Below are positions 597-64,000 of a DNA stretch of 64,000 nucleotides, in pieces; position 1 is the stretch's first letter, and each line of letters begins with the position of its first letter. The notes below the pieces were generated by a model. That model was not told the DNA's origin and made no database searches. It saw nothing but the letters and a program-made list of their open reading frames with translations. The stretch is from Terebella lapidaria. Its lineage: Eukaryota; Annelida; Polychaeta; Terebellida; Terebellidae. Location: positions 100,769,645 through 100,833,644 of the forward strand of contig OX424555.1 of the NCBI GenBank assembly GCA_949152475.1, in the 5' to 3' direction. A program made the position numbers and the translations under genes.

Positions 597-42514
<41,918 letters not shown>

Positions 42515-49201: not shown

Positions 49202-52200
49202 AACAAAAAACAGCGAGTTTAAGAGAAAAATGCGTTGTCAAATTTTGGAAAAAAAATAGCAGCAGCACAACAACAAAAAACAATTTTGGAAAAAAAATAG
49301 CAGCAGCAGCACAGCAACAAAAAACAGCGAGTTTAAGAGAAAAATGCGTTGTCGAATTTTGGAACAAAAATAGCAGCAGCAGCAGCACAGCAACAAAAAA
49401 CAGCGAGTTTAAGAGAAAAATGCGTTGTCGAATTTTGGAACAAAAATAGCAGCAGCAGCAGCACAGCAACAAAAAACAGCGAGTTTAAGAGAAAAATGCG
49501 TTGTCGAATTTTGGAACAAAAATAGCAGCAGCAGCAGCACAGCAACAAAAAACAGCGAGTTTAAGAGAAAAATGCGTTGTCGAATTTTGGAACAAAAATA
49601 GCAGCAGCAGCAGCACAGCAACAAAAAACAGCGAGTTTAAGAGAAAAATGCGTTGTCGAATTTTGGAACAAAAATAGCAGCAGCAGCAGCACAGCAACAA
49701 AAAACAGCGAGTTTAAGAGAAAAATGCGTTGTCGAATTTTGGAACAAAAATAGCAGCAGCAGCAGCACAGCAACAAAAAACAGCGAGTTTAAGAGAAAAA
49801 TGCGTTGTCGAATTTTGGAACAAAAATAGCAGCAGCAGCAGCACAGCAACAAAAAACAGCGAGTTTAAGAGAAAAATGCGTTGTCGAATTTTGGAACAAA
49901 AATAGCAGCAGCAGCAGCACAGCAACAAAAAACAGCGAGTTTAAGAGAAAAATGCGTTGTCGAATTTTGGAACAAAAATAGCAGCAGCAGCAGCACAGCA
50001 ACAAAAAACAGCGAGTTTAAGAGAAAAATGCGTTGTCGAATTTTGGAACAAAAATAGCAGCAGCAGCAGCACAGCAACAAAAAACAGCGAGTTTAAGAGA
50101 AAAATGCGTTGTCGAATTTTGGAACAAAAATAGCAGCAGCAGCAGCACAGCAACAAAAAACAGCGAGTTTAAGAGAAAAATGCGTTGTCGAATTTTGGAA
50201 CAAAAATAGCAGCAGCAGCAGCACAGCAACAAAAAACAGCGAGTTTAAGAGAAAAATGCGTTGTCGAATTTTGGAACAAAAATAGCAGCAGCAGCAGCAC
50301 AGCAACAAAAAACAGCGAGTTTAAGAGAAAAATGCGTTGTCGAATTTTGGAACAAAAATAGCAGCAGCAGCAGCACAGCAACAAAAAACAGCGAGTTTAA
50401 GAGAAAAATGCGTTGTCGAATTTTGGAACAAAAATAGCAGCAGCAGCAGCACAGCAACAAAAAACAGCGAGTTTAAGAGAAAAATGCGTTGTCGAATTTT
50501 GGAACAAAAATAGCAGCAGCAGCAGCACAGCAACAAAAAACAGCGAGTTTAAGAGAAAAATGCGTTGTCGAATTTTGGAACAAAAATAGCAGCAGCAGCA
50601 GCACAGCAACAAAAAACAGCGAGTTTAAGAGAAAAATGCGTTGTCGAATTTTGGAACAAAAATAGCAGCAGCAGCAGCACAGCAACAAAAAACAGCGAGT
50701 TTAAGAGAAAAATGCGTTGTCGAATTTTGGAACAAAAATAGCAGCAGCAGCAGCACAGCAACAAAAAACAGCGAGTTTAAGAGAAAAATGCGTTGTCGAA
50801 TTTTGGAACAAAAATAGCAGCAGCAGCAGCACAGCAACAAAAAACAGCGAGTTTAAGAGAAAAATGCGTTGTCGAATTTTGGAACAAAAATAGCAGCAGC
50901 AGCAGCACAGCAACAAAAAACAGCGAGTTTAAGAGAAAAATGCGTTGTCGAATTTTGGAACAAAAATAGCAGCAGCAGCAGCACACAGCAACAAAAAACA
51001 GCGAGTTTAAGAGAAAAATGCGTTGTCGAATTTTGGAACAAAAATAGCAGCAGCAGCAGCACAGCAACAAAAAACAGCGAGTTTAAGAGAAAAATGCGTT
51101 GTCGAATTTTGGAACAAAAATAGCAGCAGCAGCAGCACAGCAACAAAAAACAGCGAGTTTAAGAGAAAAATGCGTTGTCGAATTTTGGAACAAAAATAGC
51201 AGCAGCAGCAGCACAGCAACAAAAAACAGCGAGTTTAAGAGAAAAATGCGTTGTCGAATTTTGGAACAAAAATAGCAGCAGCAGCAGCACAGCAACAAAA
51301 AACAGCGAGTTTAAGAGAAAAATGCGTTGTCGAATTTTGGAACAAAAATAGCAGCAGCAGCAGCACAGCAACAAAAAACAGCGAGTTTAAGAGAAAAATG
51401 CGTTGTCGAATTTTGGAACAAAAATAGCAGCAGCAGCAGCACAGCAACAAAAAACAGCGAGTTTAAGAGAAAAATGCGTTGTCGAATTTTGGAACAAAAA
51501 TAGCAGCAGCAGCAGCACAGCAACAAAAAACAGCGAGTTTAAGAGAAAAATGCGTTGTCGAATTTTGGAACAAAAATAGCAGCAGCAGCAGCACAGCAAC
51601 AAAAAACAGCGAGTTTAAGAGAAAAATGCGTTGTCGAATTTTGGAACAAAAATAGCAGCAGCAGCAGCACAGCAACAAAAAACAGCGAGTTTAAGAGAAA
51701 AATGCGTTGTCGAATTTTGGAACAAAAATAGCAGCAGCAGCAGCACAGCAACAAAAAACAGCGAGTTTAAGAGAAAAATGCGTTGTCGAATTTTGGAACA
51801 AAAATAGCAGCAGCAGCAGCACAGCAACAAAAAACAGCGAGTTTAAGAGAAAAATGCGTTGTCGAATTTTGGAACAAAAATAGCAGCAGCAGCAGCACAG
51901 CAACAAAAAACAGCGAGTTTAAGAGAAAAATGCGTTGTCGAATTTTGGAACAAAAATAGCAGCAGCAGCAGCACAGCAACAAAAAACAGCGAGTTTAAGA
52001 GAAAAATGCGTTGTCGAATTTTGGAACAAAAATAGCAGCAGCAGCAGCACAGCAACAAAAAACAGCGAGTTTAAGAGAAAAATGCGTTGTCGAATTTTGG
52101 AACAAAAATAGCAGCAGCAGCAGCACAGCAACAAAAAACAGCGAGTTTAAGAGAAAAATGCGTTGTCGAATTTTGGAACAAAAATAGCAGCAGCAGCAGC

Positions 52201-53654
52201 ACAGCAACAAAAAACAGCGAGTTTAAGAGAAAAATGCGTTGTCGAATTTTGGAACAAAAATAGCAGCAGCAGCAGCACAGCAACAAAAAACAGCGAGTTT
52301 AAGAGAAAAATGCGTTGTCGAATTTTGGAACAAAAATAGCAGCAGCAGCAGCACAGCAACAAAAAACAGCGAGTTTAAGAGAAAAATGCGTTGTCGAATT
52401 TTGGAACAAAAATAGCAGCAGCAGCAGCACAGCAACAAAAAACAGCGAGTTTAAGAGAAAAATGCGTTGTCGAATTTTGGAACAAAAATAGCAGCAGCAG
52501 CAGCACAGCAACAAAAAACAGCGAGTTTAAGAGAAAAATGCGTTGTCGAATTTTGGAACAAAAATAGCAGCAGCAGCAGCACAGCAACAAAAAACAGCGA
52601 GTTTAAGAGAAAAATGCGTTGTCGAATTTTGGAACAAAAATAGCAGCAGCAGCAGCACAGCAACAAAAAACAGCGAGTTTAAGAGAAAAATGCGTTGTCG
52701 AATTTTGGAACAAAAATAGCAGCAGCAGCAGCACAGCAACAAAAAACAGCGAGTTTAAGAGAAAAATGCGTTGTCGAATTTTGGAACAAAAATAGCAGCA
52801 GCAGCAGCACAGCAACAAAAAACAGCGAGTTTAAGAGAAAAATGCGTTGTCGAATTTTGGAACAAAAATAGCAGCAGCAGCAGCACAGCAACAAAAAACA
52901 GCGAGTTTAAGAGAAAAATGCGTTGTCGAATTTTGGAACAAAAATAGCAGCAGCAGCAGCACAGCAACAAAAAACAGCGAGTTTAAGAGAAAAATGCGTT
53001 GTCGAATTTTGGAACAAAAATAGCAGCAGCAGCAGCACAGCAACAAAAAACAGCGAGTTTAAGAGAAAAATGCGTTGTCGAATTTTGGAACAAAAATAGC
53101 AGCAGCAGCAGCACAGCAACAAAAAACAGCGAGTTTAAGAGAAAAATGCGTTGTCGAATTTTGGAACAAAAATAGCAGCAGCAGCAGCACAGCAACAAAA
53201 AACAGCGAGTTTAAGAGAAAAATGCGTTGTCGAATTTTGGAACAAAAATAGCAGCAGCAGCAGCACAGCAACAAAAAACAGCGAGTTTAAGAGAAAAATG
53301 CGTTGTCGAATTTTGGAACAAAAATAGCAGCAGCAGCAGCACAGCAACAAAAAACAGCGAGTTTAAGAGAAAAATGCGTTGTCGAATTTTGGAACAAAAA
53401 TAGCAGCAGCAGCAGCACAGCAACAAAAAACAGCGAGTTTAAGAGAAAAATGCGTTGTCGAATTTTGGAACAAAAATAGCAGCAGCAGCAGCACAGCAAC
53501 AAAAAACAGCGAGTTTAAGAGAAAAATGCGTTGTCGAATTTTGGAACAAAAATAGCAGCAGCAGCAGCACAGCAACAAAAAACAGCGAGTTTAAGAGAAA
53601 AATGCGTTGTCGAATTTTGGAACAAAAATAGCAGCAGCAGCAGCACAGCAACAA
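49202..53654 (+). repeat. 76-bp satellite, about 58 units, very homogeneous
   Basis: Unit: AACAAAAAACAGCGAGTTTA, AGAGAAAAATGCGTTGTCGA, ATTTTGGAACAAAAATAG and (CAG)n with CACAGC. The first two units are divergent and shortened (49202-49320). From 49400 the units look identical except for a 2-base insertion near 50983. Open frames of 71 residues repeating every 76 bases are a by-product. The array joins the 1899-bp satellite without a spacer at 53655. Confidence 0.97.
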
Positions 53655-54130
53655 GTTTGGTAATGTAAACACCATTCTACAAGTATCCATTTGGGCTCGG
53701 AATTACTAAGTTCCAGTGGTACCAGGACTTGGAATTTGGAAGAAAACCTGCTGCAACAGGGAGTAACAACTAAATTTAGAGAAAATTTGGGTAAAAAACC
53801 CAGAACGGGGATTTGGGGGATAGCTCCTGATCTAAGGACCATTGCAGTGGTTTTGAAAAGCTGATTTCCATAGAGCGCCAAGATGGTGGAGGTCGAGACT
53901 TACGGCAGATTGAAAACCTACAGTTTAACCCTGAGATGCTTCAAATATATACAACGGGAGTGGACTTACTTGGGACCACACCAGCGGGAGGTTAAGATAA
54001 GAGTGCAATTACTCTACATAAAATAATGTAAGAGTACTTATCTTTCTCCATGGTGTTGTCCCGCCGGGTTAAGAGATGAATGCTGGTCCAGGTGTGCTGG
54101 TCCAGGTGGTGACTGTAGCTTGTAGTCGGT

Positions 54131-54171
54131 GCCCCGACCGGTTTCGCGTCCTGCAACGCTCATCAGGAGGC
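54131..54171 (-). ncRNA. Type I hammerhead ribozyme motif, unit 1
   Basis: Read on the minus strand from 54171: stem I 5' strand GCCUC, core CUGAUGA, stem II GCGU, loop UGCAGG, stem II ACGC, core GAAA, mini stem III (A-C with G-U around a CG loop), cleavage triplet GUC, and stem I 3' strand GGGGC. Stem I has 5 bp with one G-U, stem II has 4 bp, stem III has 2 bp. All invariant core residues are present. Predicted cleavage is between 54136 and 54135. Very short stem III is typical of Penelope-like-element hammerheads. Activity is inferred. Confidence 0.8.
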
Positions 54172-56029
54172 CTTGTGGTTTCAGAGAAGATGTTGTGTCT
54201 CTGGAGCTGTGTGGATGTCTGTGAAAAAACACTGCATGTAAGGGCCTTAAATAGCATGGTTTGGCCTTGGAGGCACAGGGGCGGGGCAAGGCACGGGGAC
54301 AGTGAAAATCTACAGCTTGAATGGAGGCTAAGAGATGTGTGAATACCTTGGGCTTAGTACAAACAACAAGTGCAATTAGCCAGGGTTGCTGGCGCCTGGG
54401 GACTGACGGCAGTGGGCGATTGGTGATAGTGTAAACATAGCTGTTTTGTGACACCAAAAAGTTAAAAGAAAGATGTGGATATTTGATAAATTTTGAATTT
54501 GGGGAAGAATAGAGGCCGAAAAATGGATAAAAGTGATTCTAAGTAAATAATGACAGCGAGGATAACCCCCTGAAGCCAAACTACTTAGATATAGTACGAG
54601 AGATATTGTAGATTGTAAATGACCATAGAAAACCCCTACGACCATGTAGTTTATGAGAAAGATATAACTATTGAGCTGCAGATTTCACGGGAACCATGTA
54701 CTATAATAAAAACCTTGACACCGTATCATTTCAACCAACATTTTAAGGTAAATTGCATGTAAATTGCAATTGGGGTTACGTGAAGGGAATTTTTGTGACA
54801 CCTTTTTGAGTTAAAGTGAGAACCTTGTATTACACATTGTGGGAATGCAGTGAGAGCGCTGGCGGTCCGCACATGCACTAGGGACACTGCACCCACGATA
54901 ACACCATGATTTACACCAGGATATACCTCAGGGATCATAGGGATCCAAGTTAACAAAGGATATTGGGTCGAAAAGTAACTATGGAAATTTTGACCGTGCT
55001 AACCACGGGTTAAGGCCTAAATGGGGATATTGAGAATTCCGTGATCCTTGGGACAGGATATAAGGCCGAAAAAAGGAGAGTACACTCCGCTGAAGATGAA
55101 ACAACTGGGTTAAAGCAGGGATTTACATACTTGACTGACCTGCATAATACCTCACTTGCATTATACCATAAGGTGAGCTCCGTCCCTAACAACCTTAGTT
55201 TTAGGAGCTAGGTGTGTACTAAGATCTAGATCGTACACTTGGGACCCGTACCACTGCCGTTCTCTACCCCCGCCTGGCATACAGGAGAAGGTGCGGCCCG
55301 TCACTTCCGGATAATGATCCGAGAGACATCAAATGATCATGGACACCCAAAGAACAAAATGTTACGAAAATTTGTTGTGTATGAAGCAAAATTTAGGGCG
55401 CGGGAACAGCGCGGGCGTGTACCTGGGCGCGGGCGCAGCGCGGGCGTAAGTAGGGCGCGGGAACAGCGCGAAAATGTGCGTGTTTGTAGAGTGGCTCTAA
55501 GGGGCCATGGCCAAAATAATGTCCCTGGATCCCGGTGGACGGTAAGGTAAGAGGTTTGGTAATGTAAACACCATTCTACAAGTATCCATTTGGGCTCGGA
55601 ATTACTAAGTTCCAGTGGTACCAGGACTTGGAATTTGGAAGAAAACCTGCTGCAACAGGGAGTAACAACTAAATTTAGAGAAAATTTGGGTAAAAAACCC
55701 AGAACGGGGATTTGGGGGATAGCTCCTGATCTAAGGACCATTGCAGTGGTTTTGAAAAGCTGATTTCCATAGAGCGCCAAGATGGTGGAGGTCGAGACTT
55801 ACGGCAGATTGAAAACCTACAGTTTAACCCTGAGATGCTTCAAATATATACAACGGGAGTGGACTTACTTGGGACCACACCAGCGGGAGGTTAAGATAAG
55901 AGTGCAATTACTCTACATAAAATAATGTAAGAGTACTTATCTTTCTCCATGGTGTTGTCCCGCCGGGTTAAGAGATGAATGCTGGTCCAGGTGTGCTGGT
56001 CCAGGTGGTGACTGTAGCTTGTAGTCGGT

Positions 56030-56070
56030 GCCCCGACCGGTTTCGCGTCCTGCAACGCTCATCAGGAGGC
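56030..56070 (-). ncRNA. Type I hammerhead ribozyme motif, unit 2
   Basis: Identical to the motif at 54131-54171, one repeat length (1899 bp) further on. Confidence 0.8.
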
Positions 56071-57928
56071 CTTGTGGTTTCAGAGAAGATGTTGTGTCTC
56101 TGGAGCTGTGTGGATGTCTGTGAAAAAACACTGCATGTAAGGGCCTTAAATAGCATGGTTTGGCCTTGGAGGCACAGGGGCGGGGCAAGGCACGGGGACA
56201 GTGAAAATCTACAGCTTGAATGGAGGCTAAGAGATGTGTGAATACCTTGGGCTTAGTACAAACAACAAGTGCAATTAGCCAGGGTTGCTGGCGCCTGGGG
56301 ACTGACGGCAGTGGGCGATTGGTGATAGTGTAAACATAGCTGTTTTGTGACACCAAAAAGTTAAAAGAAAGATGTGGATATTTGATAAATTTTGAATTTG
56401 GGGAAGAATAGAGGCCGAAAAATGGATAAAAGTGATTCTAAGTAAATAATGACAGCGAGGATAACCCCCTGAAGCCAAACTACTTAGATATAGTACGAGA
56501 GATATTGTAGATTGTAAATGACCATAGAAAACCCCTACGACCATGTAGTTTATGAGAAAGATATAACTATTGAGCTGCAGATTTCACGGGAACCATGTAC
56601 TATAATAAAAACCTTGACACCGTATCATTTCAACCAACATTTTAAGGTAAATTGCATGTAAATTGCAATTGGGGTTACGTGAAGGGAATTTTTGTGACAC
56701 CTTTTTGAGTTAAAGTGAGAACCTTGTATTACACATTGTGGGAATGCAGTGAGAGCGCTGGCGGTCCGCACATGCACTAGGGACACTGCACCCACGATAA
56801 CACCATGATTTACACCAGGATATACCTCAGGGATCATAGGGATCCAAGTTAACAAAGGATATTGGGTCGAAAAGTAACTATGGAAATTTTGACCGTGCTA
56901 ACCACGGGTTAAGGCCTAAATGGGGATATTGAGAATTCCGTGATCCTTGGGACAGGATATAAGGCCGAAAAAAGGAGAGTACACTCCGCTGAAGATGAAA
57001 CAACTGGGTTAAAGCAGGGATTTACATACTTGACTGACCTGCATAATACCTCACTTGCATTATACCATAAGGTGAGCTCCGTCCCTAACAACCTTAGTTT
57101 TAGGAGCTAGGTGTGTACTAAGATCTAGATCGTACACTTGGGACCCGTACCACTGCCGTTCTCTACCCCCGCCTGGCATACAGGAGAAGGTGCGGCCCGT
57201 CACTTCCGGATAATGATCCGAGAGACATCAAATGATCATGGACACCCAAAGAACAAAATGTTACGAAAATTTGTTGTGTATGAAGCAAAATTTAGGGCGC
57301 GGGAACAGCGCGGGCGTGTACCTGGGCGCGGGCGCAGCGCGGGCGTAAGTAGGGCGCGGGAACAGCGCGAAAATGTGCGTGTTTGTAGAGTGGCTCTAAG
57401 GGGCCATGGCCAAAATAATGTCCCTGGATCCCGGTGGACGGTAAGGTAAGAGGTTTGGTAATGTAAACACCATTCTACAAGTATCCATTTGGGCTCGGAA
57501 TTACTAAGTTCCAGTGGTACCAGGACTTGGAATTTGGAAGAAAACCTGCTGCAACAGGGAGTAACAACTAAATTTAGAGAAAATTTGGGTAAAAAACCCA
57601 GAACGGGGATTTGGGGGATAGCTCCTGATCTAAGGACCATTGCAGTGGTTTTGAAAAGCTGATTTCCATAGAGCGCCAAGATGGTGGAGGTCGAGACTTA
57701 CGGCAGATTGAAAACCTACAGTTTAACCCTGAGATGCTTCAAATATATACAACGGGAGTGGACTTACTTGGGACCACACCAGCGGGAGGTTAAGATAAGA
57801 GTGCAATTACTCTACATAAAATAATGTAAGAGTACTTATCTTTCTCCATGGTGTTGTCCCGCCGGGTTAAGAGATGAATGCTGGTCCAGGTGTGCTGGTC
57901 CAGGTGGTGACTGTAGCTTGTAGTCGGT

Positions 57929-57969
57929 GCCCCGACCGGTTTCGCGTCCTGCAACGCTCATCAGGAGGC
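57929..57969 (-). ncRNA. Type I hammerhead ribozyme motif, unit 3
   Basis: Identical copy in the third satellite unit. Confidence 0.8.
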
Positions 57970-59827
57970 CTTGTGGTTTCAGAGAAGATGTTGTGTCTCT
58001 GGAGCTGTGTGGATGTCTGTGAAAAAACACTGCATGTAAGGGCCTTAAATAGCATGGTTTGGCCTTGGAGGCACAGGGGCGGGGCAAGGCACGGGGACAG
58101 TGAAAATCTACAGCTTGAATGGAGGCTAAGAGATGTGTGAATACCTTGGGCTTAGTACAAACAACAAGTGCAATTAGCCAGGGTTGCTGGCGCCTGGGGA
58201 CTGACGGCAGTGGGCGATTGGTGATAGTGTAAACATAGCTGTTTTGTGACACCAAAAAGTTAAAAGAAAGATGTGGATATTTGATAAATTTTGAATTTGG
58301 GGAAGAATAGAGGCCGAAAAATGGATAAAAGTGATTCTAAGTAAATAATGACAGCGAGGATAACCCCCTGAAGCCAAACTACTTAGATATAGTACGAGAG
58401 ATATTGTAGATTGTAAATGACCATAGAAAACCCCTACGACCATGTAGTTTATGAGAAAGATATAACTATTGAGCTGCAGATTTCACGGGAACCATGTACT
58501 ATAATAAAAACCTTGACACCGTATCATTTCAACCAACATTTTAAGGTAAATTGCATGTAAATTGCAATTGGGGTTACGTGAAGGGAATTTTTGTGACACC
58601 TTTTTGAGTTAAAGTGAGAACCTTGTATTACACATTGTGGGAATGCAGTGAGAGCGCTGGCGGTCCGCACATGCACTAGGGACACTGCACCCACGATAAC
58701 ACCATGATTTACACCAGGATATACCTCAGGGATCATAGGGATCCAAGTTAACAAAGGATATTGGGTCGAAAAGTAACTATGGAAATTTTGACCGTGCTAA
58801 CCACGGGTTAAGGCCTAAATGGGGATATTGAGAATTCCGTGATCCTTGGGACAGGATATAAGGCCGAAAAAAGGAGAGTACACTCCGCTGAAGATGAAAC
58901 AACTGGGTTAAAGCAGGGATTTACATACTTGACTGACCTGCATAATACCTCACTTGCATTATACCATAAGGTGAGCTCCGTCCCTAACAACCTTAGTTTT
59001 AGGAGCTAGGTGTGTACTAAGATCTAGATCGTACACTTGGGACCCGTACCACTGCCGTTCTCTACCCCCGCCTGGCATACAGGAGAAGGTGCGGCCCGTC
59101 ACTTCCGGATAATGATCCGAGAGACATCAAATGATCATGGACACCCAAAGAACAAAATGTTACGAAAATTTGTTGTGTATGAAGCAAAATTTAGGGCGCG
59201 GGAACAGCGCGGGCGTGTACCTGGGCGCGGGCGCAGCGCGGGCGTAAGTAGGGCGCGGGAACAGCGCGAAAATGTGCGTGTTTGTAGAGTGGCTCTAAGG
59301 GGCCATGGCCAAAATAATGTCCCTGGATCCCGGTGGACGGTAAGGTAAGAGGTTTGGTAATGTAAACACCATTCTACAAGTATCCATTTGGGCTCGGAAT
59401 TACTAAGTTCCAGTGGTACCAGGACTTGGAATTTGGAAGAAAACCTGCTGCAACAGGGAGTAACAACTAAATTTAGAGAAAATTTGGGTAAAAAACCCAG
59501 AACGGGGATTTGGGGGATAGCTCCTGATCTAAGGACCATTGCAGTGGTTTTGAAAAGCTGATTTCCATAGAGCGCCAAGATGGTGGAGGTCGAGACTTAC
59601 GGCAGATTGAAAACCTACAGTTTAACCCTGAGATGCTTCAAATATATACAACGGGAGTGGACTTACTTGGGACCACACCAGCGGGAGGTTAAGATAAGAG
59701 TGCAATTACTCTACATAAAATAATGTAAGAGTACTTATCTTTCTCCATGGTGTTGTCCCGCCGGGTTAAGAGATGAATGCTGGTCCAGGTGTGCTGGTCC
59801 AGGTGGTGACTGTAGCTTGTAGTCGGT

Positions 59828-59868
59828 GCCCCGACCGGTTTCGCGTCCTGCAACGCTCATCAGGAGGC
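59828..59868 (-). ncRNA. Type I hammerhead ribozyme motif, unit 4
   Basis: Identical copy in the fourth satellite unit. Confidence 0.8.
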
Positions 59869-61726
59869 CTTGTGGTTTCAGAGAAGATGTTGTGTCTCTG
59901 GAGCTGTGTGGATGTCTGTGAAAAAACACTGCATGTAAGGGCCTTAAATAGCATGGTTTGGCCTTGGAGGCACAGGGGCGGGGCAAGGCACGGGGACAGT
60001 GAAAATCTACAGCTTGAATGGAGGCTAAGAGATGTGTGAATACCTTGGGCTTAGTACAAACAACAAGTGCAATTAGCCAGGGTTGCTGGCGCCTGGGGAC
60101 TGACGGCAGTGGGCGATTGGTGATAGTGTAAACATAGCTGTTTTGTGACACCAAAAAGTTAAAAGAAAGATGTGGATATTTGATAAATTTTGAATTTGGG
60201 GAAGAATAGAGGCCGAAAAATGGATAAAAGTGATTCTAAGTAAATAATGACAGCGAGGATAACCCCCTGAAGCCAAACTACTTAGATATAGTACGAGAGA
60301 TATTGTAGATTGTAAATGACCATAGAAAACCCCTACGACCATGTAGTTTATGAGAAAGATATAACTATTGAGCTGCAGATTTCACGGGAACCATGTACTA
60401 TAATAAAAACCTTGACACCGTATCATTTCAACCAACATTTTAAGGTAAATTGCATGTAAATTGCAATTGGGGTTACGTGAAGGGAATTTTTGTGACACCT
60501 TTTTGAGTTAAAGTGAGAACCTTGTATTACACATTGTGGGAATGCAGTGAGAGCGCTGGCGGTCCGCACATGCACTAGGGACACTGCACCCACGATAACA
60601 CCATGATTTACACCAGGATATACCTCAGGGATCATAGGGATCCAAGTTAACAAAGGATATTGGGTCGAAAAGTAACTATGGAAATTTTGACCGTGCTAAC
60701 CACGGGTTAAGGCCTAAATGGGGATATTGAGAATTCCGTGATCCTTGGGACAGGATATAAGGCCGAAAAAAGGAGAGTACACTCCGCTGAAGATGAAACA
60801 ACTGGGTTAAAGCAGGGATTTACATACTTGACTGACCTGCATAATACCTCACTTGCATTATACCATAAGGTGAGCTCCGTCCCTAACAACCTTAGTTTTA
60901 GGAGCTAGGTGTGTACTAAGATCTAGATCGTACACTTGGGACCCGTACCACTGCCGTTCTCTACCCCCGCCTGGCATACAGGAGAAGGTGCGGCCCGTCA
61001 CTTCCGGATAATGATCCGAGAGACATCAAATGATCATGGACACCCAAAGAACAAAATGTTACGAAAATTTGTTGTGTATGAAGCAAAATTTAGGGCGCGG
61101 GAACAGCGCGGGCGTGTACCTGGGCGCGGGCGCAGCGCGGGCGTAAGTAGGGCGCGGGAACAGCGCGAAAATGTGCGTGTTTGTAGAGTGGCTCTAAGGG
61201 GCCATGGCCAAAATAATGTCCCTGGATCCCGGTGGACGGTAAGGTAAGAGGTTTGGTAATGTAAACACCATTCTACAAGTATCCATTTGGGCTCGGAATT
61301 ACTAAGTTCCAGTGGTACCAGGACTTGGAATTTGGAAGAAAACCTGCTGCAACAGGGAGTAACAACTAAATTTAGAGAAAATTTGGGTAAAAAACCCAGA
61401 ACGGGGATTTGGGGGATAGCTCCTGATCTAAGGACCATTGCAGTGGTTTTGAAAAGCTGATTTCCATAGAGCGCCAAGATGGTGGAGGTCGAGACTTACG
61501 GCAGATTGAAAACCTACAGTTTAACCCTGAGATGCTTCAAATATATACAACGGGAGTGGACTTACTTGGGACCACACCAGCGGGAGGTTAAGATAAGAGT
61601 GCAATTACTCTACATAAAATAATGTAAGAGTACTTATCTTTCTCCATGGTGTTGTCCCGCCGGGTTAAGAGATGAATGCTGGTCCAGGTGTGCTGGTCCA
61701 GGTGGTGACTGTAGCTTGTAGTCGGT

Positions 61727-61767
61727 GCCCCGACCGGTTTCGCGTCCTGCAACGCTCATCAGGAGGC
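61727..61767 (-). ncRNA. Type I hammerhead ribozyme motif, unit 5
   Basis: Identical copy in the fifth satellite unit. Confidence 0.8.
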
Positions 61768-63625
61768 CTTGTGGTTTCAGAGAAGATGTTGTGTCTCTGG
61801 AGCTGTGTGGATGTCTGTGAAAAAACACTGCATGTAAGGGCCTTAAATAGCATGGTTTGGCCTTGGAGGCACAGGGGCGGGGCAAGGCACGGGGACAGTG
61901 AAAATCTACAGCTTGAATGGAGGCTAAGAGATGTGTGAATACCTTGGGCTTAGTACAAACAACAAGTGCAATTAGCCAGGGTTGCTGGCGCCTGGGGACT
62001 GACGGCAGTGGGCGATTGGTGATAGTGTAAACATAGCTGTTTTGTGACACCAAAAAGTTAAAAGAAAGATGTGGATATTTGATAAATTTTGAATTTGGGG
62101 AAGAATAGAGGCCGAAAAATGGATAAAAGTGATTCTAAGTAAATAATGACAGCGAGGATAACCCCCTGAAGCCAAACTACTTAGATATAGTACGAGAGAT
62201 ATTGTAGATTGTAAATGACCATAGAAAACCCCTACGACCATGTAGTTTATGAGAAAGATATAACTATTGAGCTGCAGATTTCACGGGAACCATGTACTAT
62301 AATAAAAACCTTGACACCGTATCATTTCAACCAACATTTTAAGGTAAATTGCATGTAAATTGCAATTGGGGTTACGTGAAGGGAATTTTTGTGACACCTT
62401 TTTGAGTTAAAGTGAGAACCTTGTATTACACATTGTGGGAATGCAGTGAGAGCGCTGGCGGTCCGCACATGCACTAGGGACACTGCACCCACGATAACAC
62501 CATGATTTACACCAGGATATACCTCAGGGATCATAGGGATCCAAGTTAACAAAGGATATTGGGTCGAAAAGTAACTATGGAAATTTTGACCGTGCTAACC
62601 ACGGGTTAAGGCCTAAATGGGGATATTGAGAATTCCGTGATCCTTGGGACAGGATATAAGGCCGAAAAAAGGAGAGTACACTCCGCTGAAGATGAAACAA
62701 CTGGGTTAAAGCAGGGATTTACATACTTGACTGACCTGCATAATACCTCACTTGCATTATACCATAAGGTGAGCTCCGTCCCTAACAACCTTAGTTTTAG
62801 GAGCTAGGTGTGTACTAAGATCTAGATCGTACACTTGGGACCCGTACCACTGCCGTTCTCTACCCCCGCCTGGCATACAGGAGAAGGTGCGGCCCGTCAC
62901 TTCCGGATAATGATCCGAGAGACATCAAATGATCATGGACACCCAAAGAACAAAATGTTACGAAAATTTGTTGTGTATGAAGCAAAATTTAGGGCGCGGG
63001 AACAGCGCGGGCGTGTACCTGGGCGCGGGCGCAGCGCGGGCGTAAGTAGGGCGCGGGAACAGCGCGAAAATGTGCGTGTTTGTAGAGTGGCTCTAAGGGG
63101 CCATGGCCAAAATAATGTCCCTGGATCCCGGTGGACGGTAAGGTAAGAGGTTTGGTAATGTAAACACCATTCTACAAGTATCCATTTGGGCTCGGAATTA
63201 CTAAGTTCCAGTGGTACCAGGACTTGGAATTTGGAAGAAAACCTGCTGCAACAGGGAGTAACAACTAAATTTAGAGAAAATTTGGGTAAAAAACCCAGAA
63301 CGGGGATTTGGGGGATAGCTCCTGATCTAAGGACCATTGCAGTGGTTTTGAAAAGCTGATTTCCATAGAGCGCCAAGATGGTGGAGGTCGAGACTTACGG
63401 CAGATTGAAAACCTACAGTTTAACCCTGAGATGCTTCAAATATATACAACGGGAGTGGACTTACTTGGGACCACACCAGCGGGAGGTTAAGATAAGAGTG
63501 CAATTACTCTACATAAAATAATGTAAGAGTACTTATCTTTCTCCATGGTGTTGTCCCGCCGGGTTAAGAGATGAATGCTGGTCCAGGTGTGCTGGTCCAG
63601 GTGGTGACTGTAGCTTGTAGTCGGT

Positions 63626-63666
63626 GCCCCGACCGGTTTCGCGTCCTGCAACGCTCATCAGGAGGC
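63626..63666 (-). ncRNA. Type I hammerhead ribozyme motif, unit 6 (partial unit)
   Basis: Identical copy in the last, incomplete unit of the window. Confidence 0.8.
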
Positions 63667-64000
63667 CTTGTGGTTTCAGAGAAGATGTTGTGTCTCTGGA
63701 GCTGTGTGGATGTCTGTGAAAAAACACTGCATGTAAGGGCCTTAAATAGCATGGTTTGGCCTTGGAGGCACAGGGGCGGGGCAAGGCACGGGGACAGTGA
63801 AAATCTACAGCTTGAATGGAGGCTAAGAGATGTGTGAATACCTTGGGCTTAGTACAAACAACAAGTGCAATTAGCCAGGGTTGCTGGCGCCTGGGGACTG
63901 ACGGCAGTGGGCGATTGGTGATAGTGTAAACATAGCTGTTTTGTGACACCAAAAAGTTAAAAGAAAGATGTGGATATTTGATAAATTTTGAATTTGGGGA

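Follow-up and report, generated by a model that had tools for sequence, protein, structure and literature searches.

Type I hammerhead ribozymes in animal repeats have been tied to retrozymes and Penelope-like elements, and the role of their minimal class has been called a mystery (PMC7761336). The minimal hammerheads of Penelope-like elements are reported without helix III or loop-loop contacts (PMC7761336), the open reading frame (ORF) of a Penelope-like element begins inside the hammerhead, and an AC-rich stem loop is the starting point of its reverse transcription (PMC11167929). Metazoan non-LTR (non-long-terminal-repeat) retrozymes are made of 150-450-bp repeats, present in many copies, that give highly self-paired circular RNAs (PMC7229834). 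Among satellites, the W elements of Schistosoma mansoni, which are transcribed and located on one chromosome, have an extremely short stem III and evidence of functional cleavage (PMC8490949), and in a newt satellite with a repeat of a few hundred base pairs the double hammerhead is far more efficient than the monomer (PMC6155905). Here we analyse a 64,000-nucleotide stretch of the genome of the polychaete Terebella lapidaria (assembly GCA_949152475.1, contig OX424555.1, positions 100,769,645-100,833,644; hereafter the window), which is the terminus of a contig, C1, of 100,833,644 bases in a genome of 761.6 Mb and 438 contigs. The window ends in a satellite whose 1899-bp unit contains a minimal hammerhead motif on the minus strand. 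In our preferred reading, to which we assign a probability of roughly 60%, a composite satellite, amplifying as DNA, has captured a hammerhead of the Penelope/retrozyme class, and any cleavage is co-transcriptional or dimeric.

The tandem array occupies window positions 53655-64000, where comparison at lag 1899 reveals 0 mismatches from 53655 onwards, and runs off the contig because C1 ends at window base 64000. Its units lie head to tail and are homogenised, and deletion derivatives of the unit have been amplified in tandem, which identifies it as satellite DNA. On the minus strand, positions 54131-54171 form a complete minimal type I hammerhead, open at stem I, in which the core letters (CUGANGA, GAAA and NUH) and all three helices occur together. 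Stem I (GCCUC/GGGGC) has 5 bp including one U-G pair; stem II (GCGU/ACGC) has 4 bp and the loop UGCAGG, with the core CUGAUGA before it and GAAA after it; stem III is reduced to 2 bp (A-U and C-G) with the 2-nt loop CG, and the cut is predicted at GUC, between 54136 and 54135. All core residues and stems were verified pair by pair, which upholds the preliminary description of a complete minimal type I hammerhead on this strand, and its placement in the very short stem III class known from Penelope-like elements and retrozymes is likewise supported. The motif is repeated at a spacing of 1899 bp, giving six copies in the window:

53655..64000, no strand assigned: tandem array of exact 1899-bp units (lag-1899 identity), cut by the contig end
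54131..54171, minus strand: hammerhead copy 1 (sequence, pairing and descriptor scan)
54171-54167/54135-54131, minus strand: stem I of copy 1
54166-54160, minus strand: CUGAUGA of copy 1
54159-54156/54149-54146, minus strand: stem II of copy 1
54145-54143, minus strand: GAA of copy 1
54142-54141/54138-54137, minus strand: stem III of copy 1
56030..56070, minus strand: hammerhead copy 2
57929..57969, minus strand: hammerhead copy 3
59828..59868, minus strand: hammerhead copy 4
61727..61767, minus strand: hammerhead copy 5
63626..63666, minus strand: hammerhead copy 6

A descriptor scan of the non-redundant window on both strands found 54131-54171 as its sole match, with strict and relaxed settings alike. 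The same descriptors matched 480 Mb of first-order Markov sequence once (strict) and 14 times (relaxed), corresponding to a chance expectation per window of ~2e-4 for the strict form, a value that comes from one simulated match, and ~3e-3 for the relaxed one. For the 17 canonical letters (CTGATGAG..CGAAAC..GTC), the expectation is ~3e-7 per window and ~0.004 per genome, an estimate for which a reversed-pattern control (6 matches in 210 geometries) served as calibration and the window supplied samples of stem probability. A genome-wide search (761.6 Mb) for precisely this geometry gave 15 matches, all 15 in this satellite, against 0 for the reversed-pattern control. The one-geometry 17-letter pattern occurs in ten stretches of the GTDB prokaryotic contigs (257 billion bases), none of which has hammerhead stems (0-2 pairs in stem I and 1-3 in stem II), and 0 times in IMG/VR. 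The motif is therefore likely to be a genuine minimal hammerhead of the retroelement class.

The satellite is private and highly homogeneous, and its 1.9-kb unit is built from several sequences. The 181-bp region around the hammerhead is found at 15 places (15 of 15 candidates scored), six on C1, six on contig C84 and three on contig C31. The C84 unit measures 1898 bp and has 11 differences, all at unit positions 902-1493, and C31 contains two full units plus partial ones inside runs of a 600-bp derivative. This derivative joins unit positions 1525-1899 to 1-225 (junction 225|1525) and has no hammerhead, so that the earlier statement that every unit carries the ribozyme holds for the 1899/1898-bp form and fails for the 600-bp form. 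The 225-bp half of the latter has at least 25 occurrences, 17 on C31 and 8 on contig C96 (40 of 82 candidates scored); we read C96 as the 600-bp form because this half recurs there at 600-bp spacing and no hammerhead match is present. Outside these four contigs, the matches listed are just two partial relics, both devoid of the hammerhead, on contigs C15 and C3, with no dispersed full-length copy (15/15, 16/16, 40/82 and 18/19 candidates scored in the respective searches). The unit parts concerned are:

54797..55372, plus strand: 576 bp recurring as a dispersed C3 relic in two pieces of 97.5-99% identity
54618..54671, plus strand: 54 bp with a copy on C15, 96% identical to this unit and 100% to the C84-type unit

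The unit is composite because these relics match only parts of it. The C3 relic is unbroken across unit position 1525, which identifies the 600-bp form as a deletion derivative, and since this ribozyme-less form was amplified too, amplification does not need the ribozyme. Its amplification and the near-identity of the units suggest that growth and homogenisation of the array take place in DNA, through either unequal exchange or rolling-circle copying of DNA.

The C15 copy (L065 365-418; C15:4840264-4840317) lies in otherwise unrelated sequence. The C3 relic is interrupted by a 19,894-bp element (C3:13803750-13823643, with flanks L066 and L067) whose terminal inverted repeats agree at every position for 60 bp or more (CACAGTCACATG...) and which is bordered by an 8-bp target duplication, CTCAGGGA; the satellite unit corresponds to its empty site. 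Two segments adjacent in the unit are collinear and ~20 kb apart on C3, in the manner of exons, but we rejected the idea that the unit contains a spliced host transcript because the interval has inverted repeats and a target duplication, and the satellite represents the empty site.

The two longest minus-strand frames, which were those scanned, matched no Pfam family at E 0.1, and a coding unit was rejected on this result. Neither a reverse-transcriptase nor a GIY-YIG remnant was detected in the unit (in tblastn, two host Penelope-like ORFs had no match below E 2.1), in agreement with the preliminary description, according to which no reverse transcriptase is encoded, and the whole window has no Penelope-like remnant at E 0.01. 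Around the motif, the following features can be recognised:

54038..54163, minus strand: 41-amino-acid reading frame (frame listing) whose sole ATG lies inside CUGAUGA; coding is not claimed
53978..54069, minus strand: strong predicted stem-loop of the minus RNA, ~66 nt 3' of the cut site
54246..54253, minus strand: TATA-like TATTTAAG, a promoter by resemblance only, ~75-82 nt upstream of the hammerhead
54278..54286, minus strand: GC-box-like CCCCGCCCC, by resemblance only, upstream of the TATA-like site

The longest minus frame has a single ATG, which opens the 41 codons, and the stop-to-stop frame containing them has no Pfam family at E 0.1. A 101-nt stretch with the downstream stem-loop folds at -32.7 kcal/mol (z -3.8). 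By layout only, this part of the unit resembles the start of a Penelope-like element.

Such elements are present in the same genome, and several carry hammerheads, as a check proposed in the preliminary description had anticipated. The relaxed pattern gave 65 rows genome-wide, 15 from the satellite and 50 others, the latter comprising 28 rows of family A (CTGATGAGTCCCACC.GGACGAAAC and variants), seven places of family B (CTGATGAGTCCCCTTGAGGGACGAAACGCGTC and near variants), six rows of family C (three places matched twice each), two rows for one place on contig C58, and seven others, in which stem II has 1 pair in three distinct strings and 5-6 pairs in two. Frames were listed at ten loci; several have a Penelope-like protein, recognised by eye from YIDD and GIY-YIG-like motifs, adjoining the hammerhead, and others, such as L045, do not. 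Pfam detected a GIY-YIG domain in both ORFs submitted (L038, family C, and L057, family A) and reported no reverse-transcriptase family in them. The GIY-YIG ORF of L038 lies upstream of its hammerhead, and that of L057, a 496-amino-acid open frame, runs through the hammerhead-like motif and beyond. L057 and L058 (C5:38762399 and 38764169) constitute a Penelope-like tandem derivative of 1770 bp that contains a hammerhead-like motif. Family B is dispersed, like A and C; its stem III has the 2-nt loop also seen in the satellite, and the family is missed by Rfam at the gathering score. One of its four fetched loci, L062, looks retrozyme-like, with two motifs 523 bp apart in 301-bp direct repeats that are 94% alike; L064 has a 73%-alike repeat with one pattern match, and L053 and L063 have one motif each.

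Folding of the minus-strand RNA bears on what the motif could do. In the 41-mer, 55% of the ensemble has stems I and II formed; this share is 31-49% in a chain ending 0-3 nt past stem I, 15% after six further nucleotides and <1% after nine. The state is lost because a hairpin, GGUCGG-GGCA-CCGACU, covers the cut site:

54124..54139, minus strand: predicted competing 6-bp hairpin that sequesters both the cut site and stem I's 3' strand

Cleavage would therefore have to happen early, during transcription, in a dimer or with the help of a protein, the last of which has been reported for a Penelope-like hammerhead (PMC11167929). The stem III hexamer of the satellite, ACCGGU, is palindromic, and a double hammerhead with a 6-bp stem III is therefore possible. 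For the bare 41-mer, the minimum-energy dimer is this double hammerhead (-31.7 versus 2 x -13.8 kcal/mol). The family B hexamer, ACGCGU, is palindromic as well, and its double hammerhead is kept with flanks, yet is not the minimum for the bare core. Cleavage activity of the satellite hammerhead appears plausible but weak.

Several results weigh against a captured hammerhead that is able to cleave. An extended stem I with an internal loop for loop-loop contacts is absent, as a G-A mismatch follows the 5 bp and the RNA folds without an outer helix. In the free 63-nt fold the cut site is hidden and stems I and II account for <1% of the ensemble, and the dimer of the 63-mer with flanks favours another fold. 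The covariance-model search suggested in the preliminary description, run with Rfam, yielded weak matches in very short stretches only: no hammerhead reached the gathering score in the window and none appeared up to E 10 in two units, whereas HH9 scored 12.3 bits on 111 bases (E 1.5; gathering 52) and Hammerhead_3 17.4 bits on 41 bases (E 0.056; gathering 48.5). Searched over the whole genome, Hammerhead_1 was uninformative, as 73 of 196455 candidates were scored, yielding 0 matches at E 0.001, and no control genome gave a match. Under default filters, a covariance model, R1, built from five host family B hammerheads matched nothing in the window at E 10; with filters off, the satellite motif was the best of 15 matches in one unit (9.3 bits, E 0.13), and over 17 loci the top score, 18.6 bits, went to a chance prokaryotic locus, L015. 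Finally, the 181-bp hammerhead region has no relatives outside the satellite (15 of 15 candidates scored), so that descent from a retroelement is not supported by sequence, and the unit has no nucleotide similarity to 24 host loci (L038-L061) beyond a 15-bp match at E 0.8. The scores have to be read with caution. A low Rfam score is no argument for chance because the host families A, B and C also miss the threshold: family B loci gave five Rfam matches of 21.3-23.4 bits where 34 is required, and at the five loci of families A and C that were examined no hammerhead appeared up to E 5. The silence of Rfam on the minimal class in T. lapidaria is consequently weak evidence either way. Model R1 decides nothing, because L015 outscores the satellite and also the family A and C motifs (13.7-17.7 bits).

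That the motif fits the hammerhead letters by chance, and was fixed in all copies through array homogeneity alone, seems to us rather unlikely. Over the 761.6-Mb genome, ~3 strict matches (from 1 simulated match) and ~44 relaxed ones would be expected, and the low Rfam and host-model scores fit such an origin. The copies are no independent evidence because the units are identical throughout, and in the C84 form, which differs at positions 902-1493, the first 901 positions are constant, motif or not. However, the canonical letters predict complete motifs at the far lower rates given above, stems were missing from all ten prokaryotic pattern matches, and family B, a host hammerhead family, also falls below the Rfam gathering score. 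We also hold it unlikely that the satellite, restricted to its locus, possesses in each full unit its own minus-strand promoter, hammerhead and stem-loop, and that read-through RNA is cut, partly by double hammerheads, to 1899-nt monomers possibly circularised by a host ligase; this would be a long circular RNA from a DNA-amplified array and not a mobile retrozyme.

Mobilisation through RNA is distinctly improbable. The unit would then be a very long retrozyme or a non-autonomous Penelope-like derivative, with minus-strand RNA of unit length that is circularised, reverse-transcribed in trans and inserted in tandem. Its Penelope-like layout (TATA- and GC-box-like sites upstream, ATG in the hammerhead, stem-loop downstream) agrees with this, host Penelope-like elements could act in trans, and C5 offers the 1770-bp tandem derivative with a hammerhead as a parallel. 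On the other hand, the matches listed contain no dispersed full copy, only the arrays of C1, C31, C84 and C96 and two relics, the ribozyme-less 600-bp form was amplified as well, the unit has no reverse-transcriptase or GIY-YIG remnant, and the paired fraction of the circular minus-strand unit RNA (0.555) is in line with that of shuffles (0.554), even if its energy lies slightly below theirs (z of -2.5 against 13 shuffles; -1.9 for the plus strand, also against 13). It is scarcely conceivable that the tandem DNA arose by integration of a viroid-like or delta-like circular RNA replicon with a rolling-circle genome, although the hepatitis delta circle (~1,700 nt) is of similar size to the unit and hammerheads occur in toad and termite delta-like RNAs (PMC7936874). 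Those are type III, whereas the satellite has a type I motif on one strand only; the two longest minus frames lack any Pfam family; and we reject a viroid- or delta-like rod because the paired fraction is 0.555 on the minus strand (0.554 in 13 shuffles) and 0.617 on the plus strand (0.610 in 13 shuffles). RNA-mediated spread is thus disfavoured, and the proposal of a non-autonomous, RNA-processing satellite is weakened by the lack of a threshold covariance match, the DNA-like amplification and the competing hairpin at the cut site.

Under the preferred reading of a captured hammerhead in a DNA-amplifying satellite, the motif was probably acquired from a retroelement or a retroelement-like transcript. 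A transcript of the minus strand, if made, would be cut slowly and incompletely, either within the brief time that precedes folding of the competing hairpin downstream or by a double hammerhead between two copies joined through the shared palindromic stem III. Hammerhead cleavage leaves 5'-OH and 2',3'-cyclic phosphate ends, and the predicted products would be 1899-nt pieces with such ends.

Compared with metazoan retrozymes (PMC7229834), the satellite likewise has a type I hammerhead in each tandem repeat, but its unit is 1899 bp (1898 bp on C84), it was found on few contigs among those listed and without dispersed insertions among the matches listed (40/82 scored in one search), and its paired fraction is not above that of shuffles (energy z -2.5), whereas retrozyme RNAs are highly self-paired (PMC7229834). 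Like Penelope-like elements and Terminons (PMC7761336, PMC6155905, PMC11167929), it has a type I motif that is minimal, possibly dimeric and nearly devoid of helix III; no telomerase-like reverse transcriptase was detected in its unit, nor the GIY-YIG domain of canonical Penelope-like elements. Penelope-like hammerheads lie near the ORF start in a tandem arrangement; the satellite has the motif in tandem units, and the 41-amino-acid frame, for which coding is not claimed, starts in the hammerhead. The satellite shares with the S. mansoni W elements a tandem hammerhead with an extremely short stem III (PMC8490949), but the W families with hammerheads have units of 332-428 bp and full-length autosomal copies (PMC8490949), whereas the unit described here is longer by a factor of 4.4-5.7, with no dispersed full copy among the matches listed. 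The newt satellite is similarly tandem with a weak helix III, but its repeat is of a few hundred base pairs and not 1899 bp (PMC6155905). A literature search that covered few subscription journals found, in the excerpts available, no hammerhead satellite near 1.9 kb. A long satellite spreading as DNA beside a sister form without the hammerhead would constitute a natural test of whether a ribozyme contributes to repeat amplification; that the ribozyme-less form multiplies too suggests that it is not required here.

The window contains 0 tRNA genes. A search for the TTAGGG telomere pattern (5 units) gave 0 matches. The satellite array is abutted by a different satellite:

49282..53654, plus strand: 76-bp satellite, 57.6 copies, 99% matches

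Further upstream, two other tandem arrays were observed, one with a 57-bp period at window positions 41430-41994 (~10 copies, 96% matches) and one with a 58-bp period at 29973-31687, for which longer periods of 231 and 289 were detected too.

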